DNA of 64,000 bases from Agromyces cerinus (GTDB lineage Bacteria > Actinomycetota > Actinomycetes > Actinomycetales > Microbacteriaceae). Position 1 is the stretch's first letter. Every line of letters begins with the position of its first letter. A program made the position numbers and the translations under genes. The stretch lies in NCBI RefSeq assembly GCF_016907835.1, contig NZ_JAFBCT010000001.1, positions 434,001 through 498,000 of the forward strand, given 5' to 3'. Shown piece by piece: positions 32,217 to 59,641 of this stretch. The notes beneath the pieces were generated by a model. That model worked only from the letters and a program-made list of their open reading frames with translations, was not told where the DNA came from and made no database searches.

Positions 32217-32264
32217 ACCCGTTCACCGACCCGTCGGCACCGAGGCGCATCCATTGCTAAGCTT

Positions 32265-32345
32265 CGAGGGTCGCGACTGGCGTTGAGATGGATACCATCG
32301 GGGAGCGACTGGCACGGACCGACCGCACGCCTGGGCCGGTACGCA
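32265..32345 (+). ncRNA. ZTP (pfl) riboswitch upstream of glyA
   Basis: The conserved pfl elements occur in order: GCGACTGGCG after P1 strand GTCGC (32270-32274), hairpin P2 GATGG-ATA-CCATC (32287-32299), GGGGAGCGAC closing P1 with GCGAC (32305-32309), and the P3-loop sequence CCGCACGCCTGGGC (32323-32336) inside ACCG/CGGT (32318-32321, 32337-32340). ZTP/ZMP accumulates when 10-formyl-THF is short and turns on glyA and folD-type genes, exactly the genes that follow. A CCTCG/CGAGG hairpin (32348-32370) may be part of the expression platform. Confidence 0.88.
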
Positions 32346-52015: not shown

Positions 52016-53056
52016 ATGCGCGTCGGCATGTTCCTGAATTACGCGGGCGGATTCCGAGCGGTCGCCGACGAGGTCGTCGAACTCGAGCGCGCGGGCGTCG
52101 ATCTCATCGCCGTGCCCGAGGCGTACTCGTTCGACGCGGTGAGCCAGCTCGGCTTCCTCGCGGCCCGCACCTCGACCATCACGCTCGCCTCAGGCATCCT
52201 GCAGCTCTACACGCGCACGCCCACGCTCACGGCGATGACTGCCGCGGGCCTCGACTACGTCTCCGACGGCCGGTTCGAGCTCGGCATCGGGGCATCCGGT
52301 CCGCAGGTCATCGAGGGCTTCCATGGGGTGCCCTACGACGCGCCGCTCGGCCGCACCCGCGAACTCGTCGACATCTGCCGCATGGTCTGGCGCCGCGAGC
52401 CCGTCGTGCACGACGGGCGCCGCTACAAGATCCCGCTGCCCGCGGGAGAGGGCACCGGGCTCGGCAAGCCGCTGAAGCTCATCAACCACCCCGTGCGCGA
52501 GCGCATCCCGATCACGATCGCCTCGCTCGGCCTGAAGTCGGTCGAGCAGACCGCCGAGATCGCCGACGGCTGGCTGCCGATGTTCTTCCACCCCGAACGG
52601 GCCGCCGGCGTGTGGGGCGACGCGCTCGCCGCGGGCACCGCGAAGCGCGCGCCCGAGCTCGCGCCGCTCGACATCTTCGCGAGCCCCGCGTTCGCGATCA
52701 CCGACCACCCCGAGCAGGTGCTGCCGCTCGTCAAGCCGCAGCTCGCGCTTTACATCGGCGGCATGGGCGCCCGCGGCAAGAACTTCTACAACGAGCTCAT
52801 CTCGAACTACGGCTTCGAGGCCGAGGCCGCGCACATTCAAGACCTCTACCTCGAGGGCCGCAAAGACGAGGCGATCGCCGCGGTGCCCGACGAGCTCGTC
52901 AGCGCGATCTCGCTCATCGGCCCGGCCGCTCACATCGCCGAGCGGGTCGCCGCGTTCGCCGAGGCCGGCGTCACGACCCTCGCCGTCACGCCGCTCGCCC
53001 GCAACTCGGCCGAGCGCATCGCACTCATGGCCGGGCTGCGCGCCATCGTCGGCTGA
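52016..53056 (+). CDS. LLM class F420-dependent oxidoreductase
   Basis: A 346-residue luciferase-like TIM-barrel oxidoreductase: MRVGMFLNYAGGFRAVADEVVELERAGVDLIAVPEAYSFD, LGIGASGPQVIEGFHGVPYDAPLGRTRE and IADGWLPMFFHPE, as in actinobacterial F420-type enzymes. F420 rather than FMN is a family assignment, not visible directly. Substrate unknown. ATG 52016 follows GAGGAG. Stands alone between rskA and yegP. Confidence 0.85.
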   Translation: MRVGMFLNYAGGFRAVADEVVELERAGVDLIAVPEAYSFDAVSQLGFLAARTSTITLASGILQLYTRTPTLTAMTAAGLDYVSDGRFELGIGASGPQVIEGFHGVPYDAPLGRTRELVDICRMVWRREPVVHDGRRYKIPLPAGEGTGLGKPLKLINHPVRERIPITIASLGLKSVEQTAEIADGWLPMFFHPERAAGVWGDALAAGTAKRAPELAPLDIFASPAFAITDHPEQVLPLVKPQLALYIGGMGARGKNFYNELISNYGFEAEAAHIQDLYLEGRKDEAIAAVPDELVSAISLIGPAAHIAERVAAFAEAGVTTLAVTPLARNSAERIALMAGLRAIVG

Positions 53057-53525: not shown

Positions 53526-53846
53526 TGCCCCCACAGGGACTCGAACCCTGGACCCACGGATTAACCTGCTGCACTAGGTTTCCCTAGCCACCGTCACCGG
53601 CTTGCAGTCTGGACTATATCTTCACCTTCGGCCGAGCCGGTCAGGTGCGCCGCGTGTAGTCTCTGAGGTTCCCTTGCGGTTACCTGCTGATTGCCCAATC
53701 CCTCGGATTGTCACTGCCCTTTCGGGCGAGTACCTCGGGCTCTCAGGGTGTTCCAGCATATAGCGGCGGTCATCCAGCGTATTTCGACGCTGGCGCTCCT
53801 ATTTTTTGTTGAAGTCCGTTGCTCTAACCAACTGAGCTATGGGGGC
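53526..53846 (-). tRNA. tRNA-Lys(UUU), interrupted by a group I intron
   Basis: The 5' exon (53846-53812, 35 nt) has acceptor GCCCCCA, D-arm GCTC...GAGC and anticodon strand ACGGA-CTT. The 3' exon (53564-53526, 39 nt) has TTAA-TCCGT, variable GGGTC, T-arm CAGGG-TTCGAGT-CCCTG and acceptor TGGGGGC plus discriminator A. Joining them gives a 7-base loop CTTTTAA, anticodon UUU, and a standard 74-nt cloverleaf with a short variable arm. CCA is not encoded. The intron splits the anticodon between bases 34 and 35. A TAGGCT -10 box (53858-53853) lies 6 bases upstream. Apparently the only lysine tRNA in the window. Confidence 0.92.
53565..53811 (-). ncRNA. 247-nt self-splicing group I intron (tRNA-Lys anticodon loop)
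   Basis: The catalytic core is recognisable: P/Q region GCAATCAGCAGG (53694-53683), R element CTCAGAGACTACACG (53667-53653) and S element AAGATATAGTCC (53622-53611), with P7 formed by GACTA/TAGTC. P1 is exon CUU|C with intron GGAG, giving the U-G pair at the 5' splice site around an A-rich loop. The intron ends in G. No reading frame fits inside. The core resembles small bacterial tRNA introns (Azoarcus tRNA-Ile, Anabaena tRNA-Leu; class IC3), and the insertion point between bases 34 and 35 is the same as in tRNA-Leu(UAA). Confidence 0.92.
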
Positions 53847-53918
53847 GGAGACAGCCTAACAGGCCGATTCCGACGGTGGCTTCGGTGGTCTGTCGGGAGG
53901 TGCGGTTACCGTGCCGAC

Positions 53919-54383
53919 GTGAAGGAATGCTGCATGTGCCGGCGAAACCTGCCGCGGTCCCAGTTCAACGTCAAGTCCGCGTCGCCCGACGGCGTTCAGA
54001 ACGTCTGCCGCGACTGCAACCGGGCACAGGCGCGTGCATACTATGCGCGGAATCGTGATGCGCACGTTCGCGTCGTCATGGCACGCAGAGCCGGGCAACG
54101 GAGACTGGCGATCGAGAGGGTCGGCGGGTACCTGCTCGCCCATCCGTGCGTCGATTGCGGTGAGAGCGACGTGCGCGTGCTCGATTTCGACCACCGCGTC
54201 GGGAGCGGCAACCAGGCCGAGGTGATGCGGTTGGTTCAGAACGGCTATTCCGTCAGTCGTGTCATGGCCGAGATCGCGAAATGCGACGTGCGGTGTCGCA
54301 ACTGCCACGCGAAGGTGACCTATGAACGCATGGGCGAGAACTGGCGCACGGCCCTCATGCGGCGTGCGGCCCTCGACGACTGA
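53919..54383 (+). CDS. HNH endonuclease-like zinc protein beside the intron-containing tRNA
   Basis: A 154-residue protein with two zinc ribbons: an N-terminal CCMC...CRDC pair (with RSQFNVKSASPDG between) and a C-terminal HNH-type module CVDCGE-x8-DFDHR...CDVRCRNCHAK (about 85-130). The His-Asn-His arrangement (DFDH and RCRNCH) is typical of HNH nucleases of unknown target. Start GTG 53919 is the best in frame; a GGTTACC -10-like box lies about 8 bases upstream and no ribosome-binding site is at proper spacing. It diverges from the tRNA-Lys gene, 72 bases away. Whether it acts on the intron site is speculation. Confidence 0.7.
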   Translation: MKECCMCRRNLPRSQFNVKSASPDGVQNVCRDCNRAQARAYYARNRDAHVRVVMARRAGQRRLAIERVGGYLLAHPCVDCGESDVRVLDFDHRVGSGNQAEVMRLVQNGYSVSRVMAEIAKCDVRCRNCHAKVTYERMGENWRTALMRRAALDD

Positions 54384-54455: not shown

Positions 54456-55571
54456 TCACTTCTTGGCGTGCGCGCCGCCCTTCAACGGAACGACGGTCAG
54501 CTTGGCGTCACCCAGCGAGTCCGTCGTCACGTAGAGCGTCTCTGCGCGTACCGAGACGGCCGAGGGCATCGAGACCTCGATGACGGAGGTCGCCGAGCTC
54601 GCACCCGGGGCCACGACCGCGACCTGTCCGGCGCCCATCGGGCCGCCGAAGAGTTCGGCGACGTAGAGCGTGCCGTTCGAGGCGACGGCGATGCCCGTCG
54701 CGCCGCCGAAGCCGGTCGCGACGAGATTCGTCTCACCGGTGCCGGGGTCGATCGAGTACACGACGCCGCGCGGGCCGAGAGTCGGATCCTCCGAGCCGCC
54801 GGGCAGGCTCGTCACGTAGAGCAGGCCGTCGGGTCCCATTTCGACATCGGTGGGCACGGGTTCGGCGCGGTAGTCGTGCCCGTAGACGCAGGCGGGCCAC
54901 GGAGCCTCGCCGATGTTCTCCGCGGTGACCGTGATCGGTGCGGCCGGTGGCAGCACGGCGACGGTCGAGACGACGCCCTCCGCATCGACCTTGAGCACGG
55001 CGTTCGCGCCGGCATCGGCGATGTACACATCGCCGCCGACGGCGGTCGCGCCGTAGGCGTGCGTGTCGACGATGCCCGTGTAGTTCGGCATGCCGAGCGG
55101 CGGGAACGGCGGGAACGGTACGAACTCGGCTTCGCATTCGGCGCTCAGGTCGCTGAACCCGTAGGTATTGACCGAGTCGGGGTTCACCGTGGCCTCGTAC
55201 CCGGCGAGGTCGGCGATCGAGGTCTCGACTCCGTTGGTCGTCGAATTCAGCCACGCGCTCGTGTGATCGCCGTTCGTGGTCACGTAGTACACGGTGCCGC
55301 CCTCGACGGCGGGTGCGCTGACCTCGTCGCCCTCGGTGGCCACGACCGCTGTCGCGTCACCCTTCTTGTCGATGAGGGAGAGTACGCCGATGAAGTTCTG
55401 CGAGACGTAGGCGCGACCGGATGCGTCGATGGCGAGTCCGAGCGGGGTCACGAGGCCATCGGCTCGTGTGGAGGGCGTGCCGCTGGGTTGGGCGGCGATC
55501 GCCGGGGTTGCGACGGCGAGTGCGACGGCTGCCGCCATCGCGACGCCGATGAGTGGAATACGCGTGTGCAT
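54456..55571 (-). CDS. ScyD/ScyE family secreted protein
   Basis: A 371-residue exported protein with a Sec signal (MHTRIPLIGVAMAAAVALAVATPAIAA, cleavage after AIA-A) and a beta-propeller/NHL-like body: repeats such as GLVTPLGLAIDASGRAYVSQNF, GGDVYIADAGANAVLKVD, DVEMGPDGLLYVTSLPGGSED and GIAVASNGTLYVAELF. The ScyD/ScyE name comes from cyanobacterial scytonemin genes; in actinobacteria the function is unknown. ATG 55571 follows GAGGAG. Downstream on the same strand of the membrane protein at 55.7-56.9 kb. Confidence 0.82.
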   Translation of the reverse strand: MHTRIPLIGVAMAAAVALAVATPAIAAQPSGTPSTRADGLVTPLGLAIDASGRAYVSQNFIGVLSLIDKKGDATAVVATEGDEVSAPAVEGGTVYYVTTNGDHTSAWLNSTTNGVETSIADLAGYEATVNPDSVNTYGFSDLSAECEAEFVPFPPFPPLGMPNYTGIVDTHAYGATAVGGDVYIADAGANAVLKVDAEGVVSTVAVLPPAAPITVTAENIGEAPWPACVYGHDYRAEPVPTDVEMGPDGLLYVTSLPGGSEDPTLGPRGVVYSIDPGTGETNLVATGFGGATGIAVASNGTLYVAELFGGPMGAGQVAVVAPGASSATSVIEVSMPSAVSVRAETLYVTTDSLGDAKLTVVPLKGGAHAKK

Positions 55572-55718
55572 GAACGATCTCCTCGGGATGGAGTGGCTCG
55601 AGGTCATGCCGGACGGCGTTCCCTCGGGTGGCGCCGTCGCCGGCGGCCGGTGTCAGAGTATTCCTCACATCATGTGGGCGTCGAGAGTGCGGCTCCACCC
55701 AGTACAGGGGACAGCCCT

Positions 55719-56885
55719 TCACGTCGACGGGTCCCGATCCGACGCCCGCCACTCGACGTACGCGCCCACCGCGAGCCCGAGCATCGGGCCCCAGAACCAG
55801 AACGGCAGCACGAGGTTCACCAGCAGGGCATCGGCCGGTGCCTCCACCGGGCCGACCGTGGTCAGCAGCATGGGCACGGCGGCGATGCAGAGGATTCCGG
55901 CCGCGATGAAGCCGGGAACGGCGGCGACGCCGACCGGAACGGGACGTCCGCCGACGCGCGGCATCCAGCCCGGGAAGACGCGACCCCACGGCAGGATCAG
56001 CCCGAGTGTGAGGAGGCTGGCGGCGGCGGCACCCGCGCCGATCACGAGGCCGGTGGTGAGCGTCGCCGGTTCGAGGTGCGCGTTGCTCGGCCCGAAGAGC
56101 GGCCACGGCGTCAACCAGCTCGCCCGCGCCACGGCGTAGGGGAGCGGCCCGATCGCGGCGAGCACGGTGAGCACCCGACGGTGTCGTACGAGCCACGCTG
56201 CTACGCGACCCGAACCTGCCGAACGGAGCGTCACGATCGCCGTCGCCGCCCAGACGAGTGCGGAGGTCATCCCGAGCCCGACGACCGCGAAGCCCGGCAG
56301 CCCTGCCGCGAGCGCGCCACCGACTCCGACGGCGAAGCCCGCGAGACCTTCGAGGGTGAGCCCCGCCCACCAGACGGATACCGCGATCAGCAGGAGCAAT
56401 CCGGCCAGCAGCGCCGCGCCGAGCCGCGGTGCCCGCACGAGGGCGACCGCGATCGTGACGAGGCCGGCGACCACCGCTACAGCGCCGAAGAGGTATCCGG
56501 TGATGGCGATGCCCGACATGCTGCCGAACGTGAAGCCGAACGCGATGGCGAGGGCCGATGCGCCGGCGCCCGCGGCGAGCGACCGCGGTCGTGACACGCG
56601 ACGGGCGGCGAGCAACGTGGCCAGCACCACCCCGGCTGCGCCGGTGGCGAGGGAGAGGAGCGCTGCCGCCGTCGGGTCGAGCAGCAGGGTCGCGAGGCTC
56701 GGTGTGACGGGGTTGGCGAACGGGCTGATCGCCGGGTCCACGAGCCAGACGATCGAGAGTCCGGTGACGATCGCGGAGGCGACGAGCGCCGTGAGGGCGA
56801 GCGGCCGGACGTGTTCCGCAGCTCGGCGACGGAGTGAGTCCGGTCGACTCGGAATGGCGCGGGCGACCGGGTCGGTGGTGGTCAC
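55719..56885 (-). CDS. Multi-span membrane protein, likely target of the adjacent two-component system
   Basis: A 388-residue protein with about 10 hydrophobic spans, Gly/Ala/Leu-rich, beginning after VTTTDPVARAIPSRPDSLRRRA. No transport motif is visible and no family could be named. The GTG at 56885 follows GAGGAG. It is divergent from the histidine kinase gene (132 bases between), the usual layout for a membrane protein regulated by, or sensed by, a NarL-type system. Confidence 0.6.
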   Translation of the reverse strand: MTTTDPVARAIPSRPDSLRRRAAEHVRPLALTALVASAIVTGLSIVWLVDPAISPFANPVTPSLATLLLDPTAAALLSLATGAAGVVLATLLAARRVSRPRSLAAGAGASALAIAFGFTFGSMSGIAITGYLFGAVAVVAGLVTIAVALVRAPRLGAALLAGLLLLIAVSVWWAGLTLEGLAGFAVGVGGALAAGLPGFAVVGLGMTSALVWAATAIVTLRSAGSGRVAAWLVRHRRVLTVLAAIGPLPYAVARASWLTPWPLFGPSNAHLEPATLTTGLVIGAGAAAASLLTLGLILPWGRVFPGWMPRVGGRPVPVGVAAVPGFIAAGILCIAAVPMLLTTVGPVEAPADALLVNLVLPFWFWGPMLGLAVGAYVEWRASDRDPST

Positions 56886-57016
56886 GATGCAGCTCCTCTG
56901 GATCGGTGAGCGGCCGCTCGGTGCGGCCACGGTCAGCGTGCCAGCGTGACGGATCGCGCGCCTCACCCCGGCGGGTGAGGCGCGCGCCCGACGGCGCCGG
57001 TAGCGTGATCGTCGAC

Positions 57017-58276
57017 ATGGACCCTGCAGACGCCCCCGCCCGAACGGCGCGGAATCCGACGCTCGCGGACCTGGTGGCGGCGCTCGCCGCCGCCGCGGCA
57101 CTGCTGCCGCTCACGATCGTCGAAGTGTTCCGAGCGATGCCGGTGGACGCGGGCTGGAGGGTCGTCGTCCTCGGCTCCTTCGTGCTGCTGCACGCGGCCG
57201 TGGCCCTGCGCCGGCGCTCGCCGGTCGGCGTGCTGGTGCTCGCCTCGGTGATCATGCTGGCACTGACCGCGGCGAGCCTGCCGGGCAGCCCAACCATCGC
57301 GGTACTGCTGCCGAGCAGCCTCGTCTACCTCGTCTTCGTCTTCACGGCGGCGGCGAGCGGCGAGCGTCTGGCCGACGCCGCTGCGCTCGCCCTGGGGCTC
57401 ACGGGAGCCGCGCTGATCACGGCGGTGGCGATCGCCCACGAAGCGGCCGATGCGATCGTCTCCGAACCGGGCGCGCTGATCACGCTCGCGGGATTCCTCG
57501 TCGCCTCGATCGGAGCCGCATGGGCGCTCGGTCGCTCGCGGCTCGAACTCCGCCGCACCCGCGCCGCGCGGGAGCTCGCGCGCGAGCAGGCCGCCGAGCT
57601 CCGCCTGCAGCGCGAGCGCGAGGCCGCTGCTGAAGAACGCCGGCGCCTTGGCCGCGACCTGCACGATGTGGTGTCGCACTCGCTCGCCGTCATGGTCGCC
57701 CAGGCCGAGGCGTCACGCGTGCTGCTCGGGCGCGACGACGTGCGCGCCCGCGCGGCGATCGAACACGTCGTGGCGACCGGTCGCAGCGCGATGACGGACA
57801 TGCGCGGCCTCGTCTCCGTGCTGGCCGTGCCTCCGGGCGACGGCGAGCACGATGCCGCCCCGATGGAGCCGAGTCCGGGTCTGGCGGATCTGCCGGAGCT
57901 CGTCGATCGCGCCGCGGCGCCTGGCCGCGCGGTGACGCTCGAACAGGCCGGGGCGGCTCGCGCGGTCAGCCCGGGCCTCGGCCTCACGGTCTACCGCGTC
58001 GTGCAGGAGTCCCTCACGAACACGCTGAAGCACACGCAGGCGCCGACGCGGAGCGCGGTGCGACTCGAGTGGGGAGCCGAGGTGCTCGAGGTGACCGTCG
58101 ACGACGACGGCAGAGCGGAGCCCGCCGTGCTCGGCCGGCCCGAGGGCCGCGGCATCCGTGGCATGCGGGAACGGACGCGGCAGCTGGGCGGCGACTTCGA
58201 GAACGGCCCGCTCGACGGCGGCGGATGGCGCACCCGACTGACGTTGCCGCTGCCTCCGTCGGAGACGAAGCGATGA
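57017..58276 (+). CDS. NarL-type sensor histidine kinase
   Basis: A 419-residue membrane kinase. Four to six spans in the N-terminal 170 residues form a small intramembrane sensor; a coiled region (RRTRAARELAREQAAELRLQREREAAAEE) leads to the HisKA_3 box RRRLGRDLHDVVSHSLAVM with phospho-accepting His216. The ATPase domain has VVQESLTNTLKH and DDDGRAEPA...GRGIRGMRERTRQLGG. It phosphorylates the response regulator encoded next (ATGA overlap). The ATG at 57017 is preceded by TAGCGT at 10 bases, so the message may be leaderless. Confidence 0.9.
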   Translation: MDPADAPARTARNPTLADLVAALAAAAALLPLTIVEVFRAMPVDAGWRVVVLGSFVLLHAAVALRRRSPVGVLVLASVIMLALTAASLPGSPTIAVLLPSSLVYLVFVFTAAASGERLADAAALALGLTGAALITAVAIAHEAADAIVSEPGALITLAGFLVASIGAAWALGRSRLELRRTRAARELAREQAAELRLQREREAAAEERRRLGRDLHDVVSHSLAVMVAQAEASRVLLGRDDVRARAAIEHVVATGRSAMTDMRGLVSVLAVPPGDGEHDAAPMEPSPGLADLPELVDRAAAPGRAVTLEQAGAARAVSPGLGLTVYRVVQESLTNTLKHTQAPTRSAVRLEWGAEVLEVTVDDDGRAEPAVLGRPEGRGIRGMRERTRQLGGDFENGPLDGGGWRTRLTLPLPPSETKR

Positions 58277-58956
58277 CCGGCGCCGACCAAGTGGCATCCG
58301 CTCGCATCCGCGTCGCCATCGCCGACGACCAGGAGCTCATCCGTTCCGCCGTGGCCGTCATGGTGGAGGCGCACGCCGACTTCGAACTCGTCGGCACGGC
58401 GTCCGACGGCGGCGAGCTCCTCGAACTGGCCCGAGCACACCGCCTCGACGTCGTGCTGATGGACATCCGGATGCCCCGGCTCGACGGCATCGAAGCCACC
58501 CGCCGGCTCCTCGCCGAGCATCCGGCGACGCGGGCGCTCATCCTCACGACGTACGACCTCGACGAGTACGTGTTCGCGGCGATCCGCGCGGGCGCGAGCG
58601 GCTTTCTTACGAAGGATGCCTCGAGCGACGAGATCGCCGCGGCGATCCGGGCGGTCCACGGAGGCGACGCCGTGCTCGCTCCCCGGGCGACTGCGAGCCT
58701 CGTCGAGTTCGTCGCGCAGGCCGCGACTCCCGCCGATCCCACCGAGCTGCTCGCCGCCCTGACGCCGCGCGAGCGAGAGGTGCTCATGCAGCTCGTCACC
58801 GGAGCCTCGAACGAGCAGGTCGCTGCCCGCCTCTACCTGACCGGCAACACCGTGAAGACCCACGTCCGGTCGATCCTCGCCAAGCTCGACCTCGCCGACC
58901 GCGTGCACGTCGTCATCTGGGCGTTCGAGCACGGGATCGCCGGCGCGCGGGAGTGA
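58273..58956 (+). CDS. LuxR/NarL family response regulator
   Basis: A 227-residue regulator: receiver domain (about 11-125) with acidic pair DD18-19, phospho-acceptor Asp64 in VVLMDIRMP, Thr in LILTTYD and Lys in FLTKDAS; then a LuxR helix-turn-helix (about 158-220; LTPREREVLMQLVTGASNEQVAARLYLTGNTVKTHVRSILAKL). Partner of the upstream kinase. Likely targets include the divergent membrane protein gene at 56885. Confidence 0.93.
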   Translation: MTGADQVASARIRVAIADDQELIRSAVAVMVEAHADFELVGTASDGGELLELARAHRLDVVLMDIRMPRLDGIEATRRLLAEHPATRALILTTYDLDEYVFAAIRAGASGFLTKDASSDEIAAAIRAVHGGDAVLAPRATASLVEFVAQAATPADPTELLAALTPREREVLMQLVTGASNEQVAARLYLTGNTVKTHVRSILAKLDLADRVHVVIWAFEHGIAGARE

Positions 58957-59002: not shown

Positions 59003-59641
59003 ATGGCTTCCGAATTCTCCCGTCCCACCAAGTTCCCGCCCGGCATGTTCGAGGCATTCAAAGGTGCGGAGGATCCGGCGCACCTGAGCCGGGTCGCCCA
59101 CGACACGGCCGCCGCCCTGCTCTCCCGGGTGCAGGCCGACCCCGATCCCGAGGTCGTCGCACGACTCGTCGCCTACACCGACGAGCACGGCATCGACGCG
59201 ATCGCCGAGCTCTGGTCGCGTGCCTCGGCCAAGAGCCTGCCGGGCGCGCTCTGGCGCGTGTACCTGCTGCGCGCCCTCATCCGCCAAGACCCTCGCAGCA
59301 TGAGCCTCGCGTTCCAGCGCGGTGCCGAGGTCTCGCACACGATCGACCAGGTCGTCGCGGGTGCGGCCATCCCCGCCGGGCCCGACGAGGTCGTCGAACT
59401 CGCCGACCGCATCCTGCACGGGCTGTTCACGGGCGACTTCGCCGTGGCCCTCGAACGAGCCGCGGCATTCGCGCGCGTCGCGGCGACCGGCTCGGCGAGC
59501 CTCGCCGACGACGCCGACGAGACCGATGCGGTGCACCCCGATCGCCCGACGAAGCTCACGATCCGGGCCCACCGCCTCGTCGAGCTCGCCGACGAGCTGA
59601 CCTCCTGCGCCCGCCTCTGGCGCCGCGACGCGCTCGATTGA
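59003..59641 (+). CDS. Conserved helical protein of unknown function
   Basis: A 212-residue cytoplasmic protein, mostly alpha-helical, with no recognised domain. Striking stretches: RPTKFPPGMFEAFKGAEDPAHLSRVAHDTAAALLSRV, IAELWSRASAKSLPGALWRVYLLRALI and DEVVELADRILHGLFTGDFAVALERAA. I have a sense of similar proteins next to pabC-like genes in related genomes but cannot name a family. A TAAGGT -10 box ends 8 bases before the ATG at 59003 with no ribosome-binding site, so probably leaderless. Confidence 0.7.
   Translation: MASEFSRPTKFPPGMFEAFKGAEDPAHLSRVAHDTAAALLSRVQADPDPEVVARLVAYTDEHGIDAIAELWSRASAKSLPGALWRVYLLRALIRQDPRSMSLAFQRGAEVSHTIDQVVAGAAIPAGPDEVVELADRILHGLFTGDFAVALERAAAFARVAATGSASLADDADETDAVHPDRPTKLTIRAHRLVELADELTSCARLWRRDALD

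Follow-up and report, generated by a model that had tools for sequence, protein, structure and literature searches.

A group I intron in the only tRNA-Lys(UUU) gene found in Agromyces cerinus and its linkage to a putative free-standing HNH endonuclease

How does a group I intron without a homing endonuclease gene of its own persist, and perhaps spread, inside the anticodon of a tRNA gene for which no second copy can be found? The question is raised by a stretch of 64,000 nucleotides (nt) from the soil bacterium Agromyces cerinus, family Microbacteriaceae (NCBI RefSeq assembly GCF_016907835.1, contig NZ_JAFBCT010000001.1, positions 434,001 to 498,000). This whole stretch is called the window below, and all coordinates refer to it. 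Positions 53846 to 53526, read on the minus strand, are confirmed as a tRNA-Lys(UUU) gene split by a group I intron, with three parts:

53812..53846, minus strand: 5' exon of tRNA-Lys(UUU), 35 nt, tRNA positions 1-34
53565..53811, minus strand: group I intron, 247 nt, here named type A (RF00028 match; 65-pair structure in 24 homologs)
53526..53564, minus strand: 3' exon of tRNA-Lys(UUU), 39 nt, from position 35 to the discriminator A; CCA is not encoded

The exon halves, GCCCCCATAGCTCAGTTGGTTAGAGCAACGGACTT and TTAATCCGTGGGTCCAGGGTTCGAGTCCCTGTGGGGGCA, join to a tRNA with a full cloverleaf, the anticodon UUU and discriminator A, which ARAGORN reads as tRNA-Lys(ttt); run without introns, the same program reports no tRNA in the unsplit window. 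The coordinates and cloverleaf given in a first-pass annotation of this DNA proved exact. The intron sits between U34 and U35, which we take to be the intron position in tRNA-Leu(UAA) as well, at the junction U^CAAC...CAGG^UUAA, so that its first bases are CAAC and its last base is G. Among the listed reading frames none of 80 or more amino acids lies inside it, and it carries no homing endonuclease gene of its own.

The first-pass annotation had assigned the insert to group I from its R and S motifs, a U-G pair in P1 and the terminal G, and had proposed a covariance search as a check. RF00028 matches positions 53821-53598 over its full model (1-253 of 253) with 57.0 bits (E 7.9e-12), above the gathering score of 50. 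The R and S motifs pair as P7 (GACUA/UAGUC). P1 is formed by exon CUU with intron GAG, with U-G at the 5' splice site, and both this helix and the terminal G are invariant in an alignment of 24 type A introns (23 distinct), from which the intron of genome G014, a near copy of that in the window, was excluded.

The same alignment supports the whole fold. A structure of 65 pairs was drawn by hand on the window sequence (P1, P2, P3, P4, P5 with extensions, P6, P7, P8 and P9 with two arms), and 99.5% of its cells are paired over the 24 introns; when partners are slid by 1-3 columns, pairing falls to 27.5-43.9%. Both sides have changed in 15 of the 65 pairs, against a shuffled mean of 6.0, and none of 500 shuffles reached as high. 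P3 and P7 contribute one compensated pair each, both from the intron of genome G157 (in P7, A-U to G-C), while P4, the first P5 helix, P6, P8 and the P9 stem do not vary and hence give no covariation signal. RNAalifold, given the same alignment, predicts P1 to P6, P8 and P9, with 13 of its 77 pairs doubly changed; it leaves out P7, which is a pseudoknot, and pairs part of the 3' strand of P7 otherwise. The junction pattern occurs once in the window, compared with a mean of 0.00 in 100 shuffles. Together with the failed slides and the recurrence of the intron in other genomes, this argues that the assignment is not due to chance.

The split gene is the only tRNA-Lys(UUU) found in a genome of one contig (3,977,730 bases, estimated by a tool as 100% complete). 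Searching with RF00005 returned 48 candidates at E up to 10, of which 45 exceed the cut-off; ARAGORN names 46 of the 48, including one Lys(CTT) and no Lys(TTT). The two unnamed candidates are weak, with neither CTTTTA nor TTTTAA inside. A pattern for the 3' half of the tRNA, with at most one mismatch, matched only the split gene, tRNA-Lys(CTT) and tRNA-Asn. AAA is not read by a CUU anticodon. In ten frames chosen near the gene, AAA occurs 3 times and AAG 36 times, so the tRNA serves a rare codon.

These observations suggest how the gene is expressed. The pre-tRNA would be transcribed from 53846 to 53526, and the intron would fold into a standard group I core, in which a P1 of 3-4 base pairs with its U-G docks the 5' splice site and P7 binds guanosine. 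Two transesterifications would then excise the intron and release the only tRNA found for AAA codons. Most likely the intron removes itself from the pre-tRNA, and because the spliced product is the only AAA tRNA found, splicing would be needed for growth, as the first-pass annotation had reasoned for the case of a sole gene copy.

The intron shares several features with the known bacterial tRNA group I introns: it is short, lacks an open reading frame (ORF), interrupts the anticodon loop, and has U-G at the 5' splice site and a terminal G. It differs from them in its host, tRNA-Lys(UUU), and in its family, Microbacteriaceae. Three papers name tRNA-Leu(UAA), fMet, Ile2 and Arg as hosts of such introns (PMC5733544, PMC8450103, PMC4853749), and a fourth treats tRNA genes in general as group I intron hosts (PMC3984707). 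The open-access literature yielded no paper on a group I intron with tRNA-Lys in Actinobacteria or on a tRNA intron in Microbacterium, and among the matches listed no title treats a tRNA-Lys group I intron of Microbacteriaceae. The locus adds a new host tRNA and a new bacterial family for tRNA group I introns.

The first-pass annotation had regarded this combination of host and phylum as unusual. The host stands, but the case is not an isolated one: the type A intron has a patchy distribution that takes in Agromyces, Microbacterium and at least one other family genome. A query with the pre-tRNA DNA matched 21 of 60 Agromyces genomes; in 15 the match covers the intron, and in 6 it is confined to parts of the tRNA. 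When the named genome collection was scanned by pattern, 26 stretches came up, and 19 of them hold the type A intron in tRNA-Lys: 10 are from Agromyces, 8 from Microbacterium and 1 from another Microbacteriaceae contig. Among 398 evenly sampled genomes of the family, the split-tRNA-Lys pattern gave four matches: the window; G157, which has genus label g19 and the same intron type as the window; G313; and one false hit. RF00028 is matched in 2 of the 398 family genomes and 3 of 396 order genomes, counts that are lower bounds since the model misses some true introns. In a tree of the introns, two from Agromyces form a group (100/99) with one that carries another genus label, though the latter sits on the longest terminal branch (0.29) and the tree is unresolved at most of its forks.

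A second intron type, type B, interrupts tRNA-Lys at the same U34/U35 junction in G313 (220 nt) and G1197 (217 nt), both of genus label g85. RF00028 scores them at 35.5 and 31.6 bits, below the gathering score. The first 20 nt of the two types are nearly identical, and the alignment of A with B scores 165 against a shuffled maximum of 107.5 (130 against 101 once the first 25 nt are removed). The type A core lacks GAGCCAAGCC and AAGGTG(C/T)AGAGACT, both of which are present in type B; in the sequences compared, type B has GAGCCAAGCC and AAGGTGTAGAGACT and type A has neither. Three other Actinomycetota tRNA intron loci that were checked all have GAGCCAAGCC, and two of them have a near copy of the second type B motif. 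The exons differ as well. Those of type B stay close to the canonical allele, from which they differ at 5 and 3 of 73 positions; the intron-bearing tRNA of the window departs from the canonical allele of the same locus at 16 of 74 columns.

What might move an intron of this kind is suggested by a gene next to the tRNA, which the first-pass annotation left out, together with the turnover of the tRNA-Lys locus; to this extent its account of the locus was incomplete:

53919..54383, plus strand: free-standing HNH endonuclease gene, 154 amino acids, GTG start (PHROG 2255, E 1e-30)

The gene is divergent from the tRNA, with 72 nt to the tRNA 5' end. Its GTG start is our choice: the frame 53691-54383 opens within the intron on the opposite strand, but only mechanically, as homologs match from 53916 on. 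Neither Pfam nor NCBIfam gives the protein a match above the cut-off. The residues DH, N and H and eight cysteines, taken as zinc cysteines, are invariant in 30 aligned open copies, broken ones being excluded.

Two further genes mark the locus across the genus, as judged from synteny by tblastn:

52016..53056, plus strand: gene downstream of the tRNA, presumably of the luciferase-like F420 type
59003..59641, plus strand: gene directly upstream of the tRNA in many congeners

The tRNA-Lys(UUU) genes of Agromyces share this one neighborhood, rearranged in some genomes; in the window the gene at 59003 is parted from the tRNA by the HNH gene and a block at 54456-58956. Within this neighborhood the 60 Agromyces genomes carry a series of tRNA alleles. 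The intron-split allele is present in 15, with an HNH gene beside the tRNA in 10 of them. An allele with an odd T-arm is present in another 15, with an HNH match starting 11-23 nt from the tRNA in 14. Three genomes (G023, G028 and G035) have a rebuilt anticodon stem; HNH remnants lie beside the tRNA in G023, and G028 has an 18-residue trace that is doubtful. G006 has an intronless gene with type A exons and no HNH gene found in its flanks, and a further GCCCCTC form occurs in two genomes, one of them with an HNH gene. The canonical allele accounts for 23 genomes, 4 of which have an HNH gene, and no tRNA-Lys(UUU) was found in G011, an assembly of 840 contigs. Flanks were searched for the HNH gene over at least 1.5 kilobases (kb) per side where the contig allows, and over wider distances in G003, G006, G020, G045, G046, G049 and G052 (about 7 kb) and in G040 (8-9 kb).

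An HNH gene is thus present in 24 of the 30 genomes whose allele is altered, by splitting or by an odd T-arm, and in 4 of the 23 with a canonical allele (Fisher p 6.7e-6, a guide only, as the test ignores kinship; seven genomes of other or unknown allele are excluded). The spacing of the upstream gene tells of the same linkage. Its start lies 41-1242 nt (median 99) away from the tRNA at 19 canonical loci that lack HNH and 529-785 nt away at 22 loci that have it, where the HNH gene occupies the gap; at three intron loci without HNH the distances are 66, 67 and 389 nt. Not counted among the 22 are G000, G014 and G019, which have another block of genes in between; G013, G053 and G057, whose stretch does not include the upstream gene; and G001, which has it on the other side. 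Outside Agromyces, an HNH gene, broken in some cases, is present at 7 of 9 intron loci from Microbacterium and the PS02068 contig (locus L110 ends 0.1 kb past the gene), and none was found in the searched flanks of the G157 intron locus. Both type B genomes also have an HNH gene beside the tRNA, located downstream of it, as at one Microbacterium type A locus (L086).

In a tree of 34 of the 39 HNH copies at the locus (broken ones excluded) and ten phage copies, all HNHs of the tRNA locus join, apart from the phage copies (100/99). One sub-clade of ten has a split tRNA next to five of its members, a canonical tRNA next to four and the GCCCCTC form next to one, and the alleles are interleaved with support (G039 with G059, G058 with G029).

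We favor, at a probability of roughly 60%, a reading in which the tRNA-Lys(UUU) intron is self-splicing and hitch-hikes on HNH-driven conversion of the locus. The neighboring free-standing HNH protein would be a homing endonuclease that targets the tRNA-Lys locus, and the gene conversion that it triggers would carry along the linked tRNA-Lys allele, here the intron-split one, so that the intron persists and spreads. The linkage suggests the activity of the HNH protein, its target and the hitch-hiking of the intron alike. Collaborative or trans homing, in which a separate endonuclease moves an ORF-less intron, is described for phage genes in PMC2988022; the known cases are phage genes, whereas here there is linkage only, at a chromosomal tRNA locus.

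Several observations weigh against this reading or count for a rival. Four HNH genes beside canonical tRNAs, all of them open and with the motif residues present, oppose a strict coupling of endonuclease and allele. Either HNH and allele recombine, or the HNH spares the canonical tRNA in those lineages, or the HNH insertion itself protects the site. At 5 of the 15 Agromyces intron loci no HNH gene was found, and in the HNH tree the Agromyces and Microbacterium copies form separate branches; both points count for a rival reading, possible but distinctly less probable. Against that rival stand the presence of the intron in 15 of 60 Agromyces genomes, compared with four pattern matches, one of them false, in 398 sampled genomes of the family; the 16 of 74 columns at which its tRNA gene departs from the canonical allele; and the grouping of two Agromyces introns with that of another genus label.

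A further reading, which we also hold possible but distinctly less probable, makes the HNH gene and the tRNA a single element. The HNH protein would cut canonical tRNA-Lys genes and carry its own uncuttable but working tRNA-Lys, an endonuclease-plus-rescue element on an essential chromosomal tRNA. The proposed protection would come from the intron, of two types at the same nucleotide, from a swapped acceptor stem, or from a rebuilt T-arm or anticodon stem. If the HNH does cut tRNA-Lys, an essential tRNA gene would be the rescue part of a selfish element. Since the HNHs beside canonical tRNAs are interleaved with those beside split ones, hitch-hiking on gene conversion is preferred over such a strict unit.

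Another reading, which we consider improbable, has the alleles diversifying to evade attack at the RNA level, with the HNH gene as a bystander. Anticodon nucleases and toxins (PrrC, PARIS and MazF-mt9) are known to attack tRNA-Lys(UUU), and several rebuilt forms of it exist, the odd T-arm in 15 genomes and the rebuilt anticodon stem in 3. However, once the intron is removed the anticodon loop is the unaltered CUUUUAA, so the intron would not protect the mature tRNA, and evasion leaves unexplained why an HNH match lies so close to the odd T-arm tRNA in 14 of its 15 genomes. That the split gene is dead and an undetected second tRNA-Lys(UUU) serves the cell is very unlikely: this has no direct support beyond the fact that tRNA finders can overlook odd tRNAs, as ARAGORN does the odd T-arm form, and against it stand the absence of another Lys(UUU) from the 48 RF00005 candidates and the 3'-half matches in a complete genome, and splice sites and structure kept across 24 introns.

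Under hitch-hiking, the HNH gene recurring beside tRNA-Lys in relatives may explain the spread of odd gene versions. The new part is the linkage of a free-standing HNH gene, whose role is putative, to a tRNA locus of many alleles. A single chromosomal locus offers a natural series (canonical, canonical with HNH, intron with HNH, intron only, and rebuilt tRNA with HNH), which allows a direct test of the long-standing question of how tRNA introns without an ORF move.

Relatives of the HNH protein occur in 114 of 50,697 phage records (E 1e-5), mycobacteriophages included. The loci inspected come from 22 of these records, together with 12 loci of 11 viral contigs; four of the latter seem to be copies of one another. 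ARAGORN places a tRNA within 100 nt of the HNH gene at 23 of the 34 loci; for segments of equal length taken from other parts of these stretches the share is 43%. In the phages Wofford (L245), Sham (L259) and PumpkinSpice (L262), the two tRNAs that flank the HNH gene are of one isoacceptor, as though the HNH gene had come with a copy. According to PMC5966550, no protein gene is more widespread in the tRNA arrays of mycobacteria and mycobacteriophages than an endonuclease gene, often of the HNH kind; here, by comparison, a single HNH gene stands at one chromosomal tRNA-Lys locus with several allele types. SegB of phages T4 and T6 is an endonuclease in a tRNA array that can drive tRNA gene inheritance or amplification, as described in PMC13096335 and PMC2988022. 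It resembles the HNH protein as a free-standing endonuclease adjoining tRNA genes; it differs in being GIY-YIG rather than HNH, in being phage-borne rather than at an essential chromosomal tRNA, and in having no intron involved.

Some features of the altered tRNAs deserve mention in their own right. The odd T-arm form (L173, L175-L178 and L188-L202; 15 Agromyces genomes) is the only tRNA-Lys(UUU) found in its genomes, mostly has GGGATGTCGGAATTCCC and lacks the GTTCGA loop. ARAGORN misses it at all five loci tried, and the Rfam tRNA model gives it 51-54 bits in the six loci scanned. Used alone, ARAGORN or RF00028 will overlook real genes in these bacteria. The rebuilt anticodon stem (L230, L231 and L232, in G035, G023 and G028) reads GCGTC..GTCGC and comes with a swapped acceptor stem. 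The split type A, odd T-arm, odd stem, GCCCCTC and G006 forms were compared by one representative each, and all five have the swapped stem (xCCCC..GGGGx); the canonical allele and type B have GGGCC..GGCCC.

A survey of the phylum gave 30 loci, among them 13 tRNA-Asn(GUU) genes split after position 35 and 2 CAU tRNAs split after position 36 (L117-L129, L134 and L141). Three of the tRNA-Asn introns (L122, L123 and L127) are 542-548 nt long and, by eye, apparently contain an HNH frame. Elsewhere in the window, positions 32263-32343 on the plus strand match the ZMP/ZTP riboswitch aptamer (RF01750, 47.3 bits).
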